NCBI GenBank assembly: GCA_027622595.1
Contig: JAQBZZ010000001.1
Coordinates: 72,181 to 107,221, forward strand
DNA from: Chloroflexota bacterium
Lineage (GTDB): Bacteria; Chloroflexota; Dehalococcoidia; Lucifugimonadales; UBA2985
Direction: 5' to 3'
Length of the DNA: 35,041 nt
Part shown: one piece after another, positions 21,835 through 24,450 of the stretch
How positions within the stretch are numbered: position 1 is the first letter of the stretch
Layout: every line of letters starts with the position of its first letter
Notes under the pieces: model-generated
The model's database searches: none
What the model was told of the DNA's origin: nothing
What the model saw: the letters and a program-made list of their open reading frames with translations, nothing else
Program-made: the position numbers and the translations under genes

Positions 21835-22626
21835 ATGTCGAGTGTAAAGAGGGCAATGACAATCGCCGGCTCCGATTCGGGTGGTGGCGCGGGCGTCCAG
21901 GCTGACCTGAAGACCTTCGCCGCGCTGGGTGTATACGGGACGTCGGCGCTGACGGCCATCACTGCACAGAACACGCTGGGAGTTACCGCGGTGCTGGAAC
22001 TGCCCCCTGACCTGGTGGCCGCCCAGATCGATGCTGTCCTCTCAGACATTGGCGCCGACGCGGTGAAGACGGGGATGCTGGCCAACTCCGGCATCATCCA
22101 AGTGGTGGCCGATAAGGCTAGAGAGTACAGCTTCTCCAACCTGGTGGTCGATCCTGTGATGGTGGCAAAGGGGGGAGACCGTCTCCTTCAGGAAGAGGCC
22201 GTGGAGGCACTGAGGAACCTCCTGATTCCCCTTGCCACGGTGGTAACTCCAAACCTTCCAGAGGCGGCTGTGCTTCTGGGTCGCGGCGTGGAATTCCTGG
22301 AGGATGCAAGGCAGGCGGCCAGAGATATTGTTGCGATGGGTGCTAAGAACGCGGTGGTGAAGGGCGGACACCTTCAGGGCGATGCGGTGGACGTCTTCTA
22401 TGACGGCAGGGAGCTTCGAGAGTTCACCGCGCCCAGGATAGACACCACAAGCACCCACGGCACGGGCTGCACATTCGCCTCCGCCATCGCCGCGGGGCTG
22501 GCACAGGGCATGTCTGTGGAGGACGCTGTGGCGCGGGCCAAGGAGTACGTCACCCAGGCCATCCGCAAAGCCTTCCCAATAGGCGGAGGCCACGGGCCTC
22601 TGAACCATTTCTACAAGCTGTGGTGA
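21835..22626 (+). CDS. thiD: hydroxymethylpyrimidine/phosphomethylpyrimidine kinase ThiD
   Basis: Phosphorylates HMP and then HMP-P to HMP-PP, the pyrimidine half of thiamine. It has 263 residues of the ribokinase-like fold: [20 protein letters not shown] near the start, [32 protein letters not shown], and the anion hole and catalytic Asp region [22 protein letters not shown] 21835 is supported by GAGGAG just upstream, overlapping the preceding stop. It is the last gene of the riboswitch-controlled unit, so imported pyrimidine can be used at once. A 39-bp stretch at 22061-22099 recurs with one mismatch inside the hicB gene downstream. Confidence 0.96.
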
Positions 22627-22743: not shown

Positions 22744-22773
22744 TTGACACCAGACTGTTTTCCGGCGTACGAT
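22744..22773 (+). promoter_or_regulatory. promoter of the hicBA pair
   Basis: A perfect -35 TTGACA at 22744-22749 and TACGAT at 22768-22773 (four of six consensus bases) are spaced by 18 bp. AGGAGG follows before ATG 22808. No clear operator palindrome is visible, although HicB proteins often repress their own promoter. Confidence 0.5.
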
Positions 22774-22807
22774 GATAGTAGTAGGAGTAATAATAGGAGG
22801 ATAAGAC

Positions 22808-23326
22808 ATGAGGTTTACAATTGGTGGACAGGATTATGAGCTAGATAGGGATCAGGTTCTAAAAGCCGCCACGGGCATTGTTCCTACTTCCCCCGACGCG
22901 CGTTATAAATACTTTGTAGTAATCAACGGCCGGCGGTATCCTATCAAACAACTGGTTCGCTCGGCGCTGACGCGTCCTCACATGCACTTCACAGCAGGAT
23001 ATGCTTACCACATCCTTGAAAAATTGGGATTTGAAATTCACAGTTTCGGTGAAGACGGGGATGCTGGCCAACTCCCGCATCATCCGGCAGGCGATGCCGG
23101 TGCCCAAGATTCTCTGAAATTCGTAATCACTCTTGAACGAGACGGAGACGGCTTTGTAATAGCCAGTTGTCCTGCCTTGCCGGGATGTCACTCTCAGGGT
23201 AGAACCAGCGATGAAGCCGTCTCAAATATCAGAGAGGCAATACGCGGCTATATTGCCAGCATGCTCACGCATGGAGAGCCAATACCTGCAATCACAGAGG
23301 TACAAGAGATAGAGGTTGCAGTCTAG
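22808..23326 (+). CDS. hicB: HicB-family antitoxin fused to an N-terminal domain
   Basis: 172 residues in two parts. The C-terminal 70 (from about 102) are a HicB domain: LKFVITLERDGDGFVIASCP, then ALPGCHSQGRTSDEAVSNI and REAIRGYIA. It should neutralise the HicA RNase encoded next to it. The N-terminal 80 residues (YKYFVVINGRRYPIKQLV, then AYHILEKLGFEI) form a small domain of the kind seen at the start of some HNH or restriction-type nucleases; a nucleic-acid role is inference. The linker (about 81-95) is encoded by a 39-bp copy of thiD sequence at 23047-23085, read in a different frame. AGGAGG precedes ATG 22808. A normal HicB has only the C-terminal part. The stop overlaps the hicA start (TAGTG). 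Confidence 0.8.
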   Translation: MRFTIGGQDYELDRDQVLKAATGIVPTSPDARYKYFVVINGRRYPIKQLVRSALTRPHMHFTAGYAYHILEKLGFEIHSFGEDGDAGQLPHHPAGDAGAQDSLKFVITLERDGDGFVIASCPALPGCHSQGRTSDEAVSNIREAIRGYIASMLTHGEPIPAITEVQEIEVAV

Positions 23327-23550
23327 TGGCTCGCCTTCCTGTAATCTCAGGAGACGATTTTGTTAGGGCAATGCTAAAAGCAGGGTACATTTGGGACTAT
23401 ACTGAAGGAAGCCATATGATTTTGCTTCACCCATCAAAGGGGAGGCTCTCAGTGCCCAGGCATCAAGAGCTGGGCCGGGGGTTATTGAGGACTTTGATTA
23501 GGGATGCTGGCTTGACAAGAGACCAGTTTACGGCTTTACTGCGAGAATAA
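23326..23550 (+). CDS. hicA: HicA-family mRNA interferase toxin
   Basis: 74-residue double-stranded-RNA-binding-like toxin that cleaves mRNA in the ribosome-free or translated pool. It carries the catalytic GSH motif with H30 in TEGSHMIL, and the family C-terminal signature VPRHQELGRGLLRTLIRDAG. The length is typical. It starts at GTG 23326, overlapping the antitoxin stop by one base, so synthesis depends on antitoxin translation. The gene order is antitoxin first, the reverse of the classic hicAB order. All key residues look intact. Confidence 0.92.
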   Translation: MARLPVISGDDFVRAMLKAGYIWDYTEGSHMILLHPSKGRLSVPRHQELGRGLLRTLIRDAGLTRDQFTALLRE

Positions 23551-23587: not shown

Positions 23588-24376
23588 TCACTCCACCTTC
23601 GGCGCCGCTATTGTCACTGGCTGGTTGAAGTTTGACAGCTTGATTGTGCGTCTGATGTCATCGGCGTCGTCAGGGGTGATGATGCCTTTGAAAACTACCT
23701 GGTACAGGTACATGTCCTCCACGCCTATCCACGCCTCGGTATCCACCATCAGGTCCGGGGCCACGGTGCCAAGGAGCGGGGACAGGGAAAAGGATGGCAG
23801 CCTACCACTAACGTGGTAGGTGCGGACGCCGTCCGCGGTTTCCAGTCCCAGCAGCGATACCTCCGTAATGTCGCTCATTATGGAGGCGATGCCAACGGCC
23901 GGGTCGAAGAATCCAAGGGGGTTCACATCCCCGGACAGCGGCCCCCAGCGTCCGCTGATGGGGTCGGTCATGTAGGTCTCTCCCGCCACTGTGACCACGT
24001 CCGCACGGACGAAGAACCCACTAAAAGTGCCCTCCCATGACAGTCTCAGCCTGTCCGGCTTCACAACGCTGCCAACCACCTCCTTCACCACCAGCCCATT
24101 GGCTATTGGCGTTCCGCCGTTTCTGTGGCTCAACTCGAATTGGAAGCTGTCAAGGAGCGCCATCGCCTCTCCTGAACGCTCCAAGATAGGCCGAGCATCG
24201 GGCAGCGGCGTAGGCGTGGGAACGGGAGTGGGAGTGCGCGATTCTACATCACAGGCCAGCGTGACAACTAGAGTGAAGAGTACAAACAACGCGGCGGCTG
24301 GTCTGAGTATTTGCCATATTCGCCGCAGGAGAGGCGCTCGCCTTCCAGAAAGAGGGGTTCTTTCATACACCAGCAT
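23588..24376 (-). CDS. LppX/LprAFG-like lipoprotein
   Basis: About 262 residues. The signal hydrophobic stretch LRPAAALFVLFTLVVTLAC ends in the lipobox TLAC, followed by a Pro/Thr spacer (TPTPVPTPTPLP). The rest is a beta-rich domain with AMALLDSFQFELSH and TYHVSGR, the layout of the LppX_LprAFG family, whose members carry lipids in a hydrophobic cavity. Lipid binding here is inference from the family. A start at GTG 24388 is possible and would add four residues; AGGAAAGG lies next to it. It lies downstream of the anti-sigma gene and may belong to its regulon or operon (62-74 nt gap). Confidence 0.8.
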   Translation of the reverse strand: MLVYERTPLSGRRAPLLRRIWQILRPAAALFVLFTLVVTLACDVESRTPTPVPTPTPLPDARPILERSGEAMALLDSFQFELSHRNGGTPIANGLVVKEVVGSVVKPDRLRLSWEGTFSGFFVRADVVTVAGETYMTDPISGRWGPLSGDVNPLGFFDPAVGIASIMSDITEVSLLGLETADGVRTYHVSGRLPSFSLSPLLGTVAPDLMVDTEAWIGVEDMYLYQVVFKGIITPDDADDIRRTIKLSNFNQPVTIAAPKVE

Positions 24377-24450
24377 GCACCGGTTCACCCTTTCCTGTGG
24401 GGCGGACTTTTATGCCCCCTGATTTGAGATAGAGGACATCCCGGCCCAGT

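Follow-up and report, generated by a model that had tools for sequence, protein, structure and literature searches.

The window, i.e., the whole stretch of 35,041 nucleotides that was analyzed, encodes a HicB-type antitoxin in which the HicB domain follows an additional domain of 80 residues, and the DNA at the join of these two domains resembles a piece of the upstream thiD gene. This raises the question of how this antitoxin obtained its architecture, what the thiD-like piece has to do with it and what the additional domain might do. A first, sequence-only reading had proposed that an inserted thiD fragment joined two separate open reading frames into a new antitoxin, and that the added domain may bind DNA or another target.

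The hicBA operon and its thiD-like segment

Judged by the encoded domains, positions 22808-23550 are a hicBA toxin-antitoxin operon, and its HicB begins with a SCO5918-like domain, here termed N-domain (Table 1). The two-domain protein is real: downstream of the N-domain, residues 106-168 of the 172 match the Pfam family HicB_lk_antitox (PF15919) above its cutoff, which provides the partial RNase H-type antitoxin domain of a type II HicBA system, and the adjacent gene of the same operon, the start of which overlaps the hicB stop by one base, encodes a HicA toxin of the dsRBD type (PF07927). No C-terminal DNA-binding domain follows the HicB domain. The ribosome-binding site AGGAGG of hicB is located at 22795-22800, and the promoter region including the -35 word is conserved in the locus L034 of a related genome (G002); a search for an operator palindrome in the region upstream of hicBA gave no convincing inverted repeat.

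Table 1. Position of the features of the thiD-hicBA locus in the window
Feature	Position	Strand	Evidence
thiD, directly upstream of hicBA	21835..22626	+	Pfam Phos_pyr_kin, E 1e-101; sole genomic copy
thiD segment homologous to the patch (donor homologue)	22061..22099	+	sequence match
Probable hicBA promoter: TTGACA 22744-22749, TACGAT 22768-22773, 18-base spacing	22744..22773	+	consensus match only
hicB-type antitoxin gene, 172 aa: N-domain, linker, HicB domain	22808..23326	+	ORF; Pfam HicB_lk_antitox, E 6e-11; orthologues
N-domain, residues 1-80, SCO5918-like, probable DNA-binding module	22808..23047	+	NCBIfam NF038312, E 4e-6 (below cutoff); homologues
Linker region, variable in length and sequence among relatives	23042..23113	+	alignments, linker list
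thiD-derived patch	23047..23087	+	41/41 to G002 thiD; 38/39 to the window's own thiD
HicB domain (partial RNase H-type antitoxin domain)	23114..23323	+	PF15919; PHROG 497; PDB HicB 6g1c/6g1n by phmmer
hicA toxin gene, 74 aa, GTG start	23326..23550	+	Pfam PF07927 (HicA_toxin), E 5e-15

The similarity to thiD is exactly as it had been described: positions 23047-23085 and 22061-22099 agree in 38 of 39 bases with a single G/C difference, and the reading frame of the segment in hicB differs from that in thiD. Both copies lie on the same strand, 986 bp apart, and the match has an E value of 5.5e-12 across the whole 1.67-Mb genome, an incomplete draft in 86 contigs. As the 107-kb contig used as baseline contains no more than two dispersed, non-palindromic matches with a higher score, the match is not due to chance. 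A genome-wide search allowing 3 mismatches found no further copies beyond hicB and the single-copy thiD. Moreover, hicB 23047-23087 is identical at 41 of 41 positions to the thiD gene of G002, whereas three of these 41 bases are different in the window's own thiD, and in the 250 genomes of the order that were searched the exact hicB 39-mer occurs only in the G002 thiD and in this hicB. Overall, identity between the thiD genes of the window and of G002 is only about 80%. The segment, in the following termed patch, shares microhomology with the unpatched linker at both ends (TCCGG at the right, a GGAGAA-like word at the left).

The word TGAAATTC is found on both sides of the region, at 23032-23039 and 23115-23122, as had been noticed before, and has 5 copies in the window compared to 0.88 expected. 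The left copy spans F75-E76-I77-H78 at the end of the N-domain and the right copy L103-K104-F105 at the start of the HicB domain. Since the reading frame is not the same for the two copies and the corresponding places in L034 read TGACATTC and TGAAATTT, the copies represent conserved codons and not a duplicated target site; a transposon target-site duplication was rejected on these grounds, so that the flanking words stand but do not mark an insertion.

Age of the fusion in Chloroflexota

A fusion made by the thiD fragment predicts that no fusion exists where the insert is absent, and this prediction fails. G002 belongs to the Dehalococcoidia, to the same family as the window genome but to a different genus, and its locus L034 (contig C78; JACVQK010000028.1) encodes the same fusion (75% identity) directly before hicA; it has no thiD segment, and its linker is 18 bases shorter. 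Beyond this family, the fusion is present in the same order (L006, from a different family, 45% identity), in the same class (L038 and L039, from two more families) and, at the level of the phylum, in additional families (L077-L084), and hicA comes next in every fusion checked for neighbors. The linkers of the fusions comprise approximately 20-45 residues; those of close relatives are alike, while distant fusions share no evident linker sequence, and at least 11 fusions beyond the sister genus have unrelated linkers. Because the sister genus has the fusion without the thiD segment and fusions throughout the phylum have unrelated linkers, the fusion is, by these sequence comparisons, old in Chloroflexota, and the thiD piece came later, as a patch in a linker that varies.

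The idea that a thiD fragment inserted between two ORFs created the antitoxin drew on the position of the segment exactly at the join and on its reading frame, which is unlike that of thiD. The segment-free fusions (L034, L006, L038, L039, L077-L084) refute it, leaving it with virtually no probability. The sequence-only reading had itself named relatives with the same fusion but an unrelated linker as a refuting case, and this case is found in the sister genus (L034) and in at least 11 further fusions. What is retained is that the segment was copied from a thiD gene and that the join is a linker, whereas it did not create the protein.

In the tree of HicB and HicA, the window groups with L034 at full support, and the neighbors closest to this pair, L008-L010, have no N-domain. 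HicBs without N-domain sit among fused ones in the HicBA trees, and the N-domain was therefore gained or lost as a unit. In the N-domain tree the fused N-domains cluster, except for one long-branch row, and they have in common an insertion of three residues (DGR or DAR) that is mostly missing from the stand-alone ones. The simplest history on these alignments would be a single fusion followed by losses of the N-domain, or an exchange of the domain as a unit. In another genome (L007, G091) the N-domain of the same fusion is split over two frames by an 8-base insertion with HicB and HicA intact; this N-domain is pseudogenised or reflects a sequencing error.

The divergence break at the linker and the source of the patch

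The surroundings of the operon differ between members of the family. In G004 (L054) the site is empty, with thiD directly followed by a homologue of the gene 23588-24388 and no hicBA. In G002, thiD and hicBA are located at the ends of two contigs, and both ends carry the 13-bp terminal repeat GGTTCTGTTTGCT beside the 8-bp word CTGCTGAG (G002:C61:84-98, G002:C78:15726-15740). The 13-bp terminal inverted repeat GGTTCTGTTTGCT occurs near the ends of many G002 contigs, and the repeated element looks like an insertion sequence with CTGCTGAG as its 8-bp target duplication, which entered between thiD and hicBA and broke the assembly. As the contig ends fit such an element, the order thiD-hicBA is probably common to both genera, the two G002 contigs being unjoined. 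In L034, hicA is followed by what is left of the 3' part of the gene 23588-24388 (L034:900-1012) and then by an MFS transporter-like gene; the G002 locus is a rearranged copy.

The comparison of the window with G002 revealed that divergence changes sharply beside the patch. DNA identity is 76% in the N-domain and 94% in HicB-HicA (Fisher p 1e-11), and the dS values are 0.66 for the N-domain, 0.19 for HicB-HicA and 0.78 for thiD. The promoter is approximately 75% identical, and identity drops again just after hicA. Synonymous constraint is not a likely cause of the low dS, since the same HicB-HicA block has a dS of about 1.5 against L008. This sharp change, together with the improbable role of constraint, suggests that HicB-HicA was probably exchanged between the lineages of the window and of G002 after their separation, with the left edge of the exchange at the linker, and the position of the patch at the break suggests that it is a leftover of recombination. 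In two of the other pairs of fusions that were tested, divergence likewise changes at the linker, in one direction or the other, with p values uncorrected for the number of pairs tried (L083/L084, p 1e-4; L077/L079, p 0.003). It is conceivable, if tentative, that lineages recombine at the linker of this HicB subfamily and in this way swap DNA-binding N-domains and HicB-HicA cassettes, the thiD patch being the scar of one such import from a sister genus.

Two sources of the patch fit the data about equally, and the possible thiD donors are set apart by three diagnostic bases only. It may well have been copied by template switching from the cell's neighboring thiD, about 1 kb away, which has since changed at three bases; the microhomologies CGGTGAAGA at the left and TCCGG at the right, the location of the source on the same strand at a distance of 986 bp, and the TCCGGG and the GGAGAA-like word which the relative's unpatched linker keeps at the patch ends are in line with such a copying. 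The adjacency of thiD and hicBA fits G002 too, its contig break being accounted for by the insertion sequence. Against it speaks that the own thiD differs at one base (C/G, an Arg/Gly codon) where the G002 thiD agrees with the patch; as the thiD genes of G004 and G001 carry the window's G at this base, the C looks derived in the G002 thiD. An origin from G002-like DNA deserves similarly serious consideration: homology-facilitated or short-patch illegitimate recombination would have brought in the patch, 41/41 identical to the G002 thiD, together with the replacement of HicB-HicA, in one event, and the patch lies at the left edge of the block of approximately 480 bp that shows the low dS. The reliance on three bases, a HicB-HicA exchange that may have run in either direction, and the lack of the patch in G002's own hicB weaken this explanation. 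A chimeric contig would be thinkable in a draft of 86 contigs, but such an assembly artefact is very improbable, as a piece of 41 bp would have to be wrongly joined at both of its ends with the frame kept and would have to reproduce a base missing from the genome's own thiD, while both flanks of the patch are homologous to the hicB of L034.

The N-domain and its relation to known systems

The N-domain matches the NCBIfam model NF038312 (SCO5918 family) with an E value of 4e-6 and 26.9-30.2 bits, which is below the curated cutoff of 60 bits. The alignment pairs residues 1-83 with positions 1-80 of the 98 in the model, and 13 of the 14 N-domains collected match the model. In terms of sequence, the N-domain is a SCO5918-related domain and by the NCBI rule not a family member. 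Pfam scans assigned it to no Pfam family, and Pfam and NCBIfam scans of all 14 N-domains, at sequence level only, yielded zero Phd/YefM matches at E values up to 1. A search of PDB sequences with the N-domain profile gave nothing significant, the best hit being SiAga1 (8znj, E 0.36). A link to the ScoMcrA head domain received no sequence support in the PDB-profile and Pfam searches. An AlphaFold2 prediction with two input sequences reached a pLDDT of 44, which is too low to inform on the fold of the N-domain.

The N-domain is also encoded by lone genes directly preceding PIN-domain (VapC-like) toxin genes (PF01850) at L046:56-400, at L047:1471-1830 and, on the reverse strand, in L050, which suggests an unannotated antitoxin family. 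Since it stands alone directly before PIN-toxin genes, the N-domain is probably a DNA-binding module common to antitoxins of different toxins. This occurrence lends some support to the earlier suggestion of a DNA-binding function for the added domain, which is plausible. Further relatives were observed in other contexts. L040:1501-1863 probably also precedes a PIN gene, the PIN-like frame being broken by a stop and having no Pfam match; three related genomes (L042, L044, L045) have a lone N-domain gene immediately before one that is ftsA-like; in L041 and L049 the N-domain lies behind a zinc-ribbon-like segment; and a similar segment was recognized by eye inside a McrB-like AAA protein (L087:742-2973, reverse strand). 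Fused relatives of N-domain and HicB were not found in viral contigs, phages gave no matches, and plasmids gave weak matches only, nearly all to the HicB domain alone.

It has to be considered whether the N-domain is a second sensor or target-binding domain, e.g., for phage components, and not a DNA-binding domain. Its occurrence in the McrB-like and the zinc-ribbon protein with no toxin nearby, and its evolution, which is faster than that of the HicB and HicA parts when the window is compared to L034, would agree with such a role. A sensor role nevertheless appears unlikely given that the N-domain gene is found repeatedly right before PIN toxins, which is the usual place of a DNA-binding antitoxin, and that many of its relatives are too small for more than one domain.

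We consider it likely that this is a hicBA system with an old fusion to a SCO5918-like N-domain, a free linker and a later, near-neutral thiD patch. From its architecture, the HicB domain would bind and block the HicA RNase, while the N-domain, connected by a flexible linker, may dimerise the antitoxin and bind an operator at the upstream promoter, thereby replacing the C-terminal HTH or RHH domain of ordinary HicBs. The sequences show the domain architecture, the overlap of the genes and the repeated occurrence of the N-domain, while DNA binding, dimerisation and autoregulation are inferred. A DNA-binding domain is not strictly needed in HicB, as small HicBs without any are common (Classes 1-2; PMC10865869). 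The thiD piece of 39-41 bp would have been added later at the linker as a short templated patch, either from the neighboring thiD before this changed or from a sister-lineage thiD in the recombination that brought the recent HicB-HicA block, and its about six additional linker residues are probably close to neutral.

Among described systems, the operon shares with HicA Class 5/6 the order of hicB before hicA, the overlapping genes, the extra N-terminal HicB domain and the lack of a C-terminal HTH/RHH domain (PMC10865869). In Class 5/6 the N-terminal domain is Phd/YefM, through which HicB dimerises and presumably contacts the operator (PMC10865869), whereas the N-domain here is SCO5918-like and, by sequence, has no Phd/YefM match in the Pfam and NCBIfam scans, which places the operon outside these classes. 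With Class 2 (PMC10865869) it has the gene order and the HicB core in common, and its close relatives L008-L010 have no N-domain. However, Class 2 HicBs comprise 63-103 codons and no further domain, unlike the 172-residue HicB of the window. From the SCO5918 family it differs in its score (27 bits, cutoff 60) and in the fusion to HicB. The combination of a SCO5918-like N-domain and HicB appears to be a HicB architecture not found described in the literature searched, and its occurrence in HicB and beside PIN toxins makes the N-domain a case of a probable DNA-binding module common to two unrelated toxin families.

For the patch, Acinetobacter baylyi offers the closest parallel. In this species double or homology-facilitated illegitimate recombination reportedly results in short patches. 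The patch in hicB resembles them in its foreign or ectopic origin, in the microhomology at its ends and in the adjoining homologous tract; unlike them, it is deduced from comparison and was not seen as an event. For such recombination, PMC8116780 cites de Vries and Wackernagel (2002) and Hulter and Wackernagel (2008). The claim of an antitoxin invented by an insertion should be dropped, and what remains is a HicB variant and, on a small scale, a clear instance of patch recombination, in which the thiD patch illustrates that a protein linker can tolerate a short templated insertion in nature.
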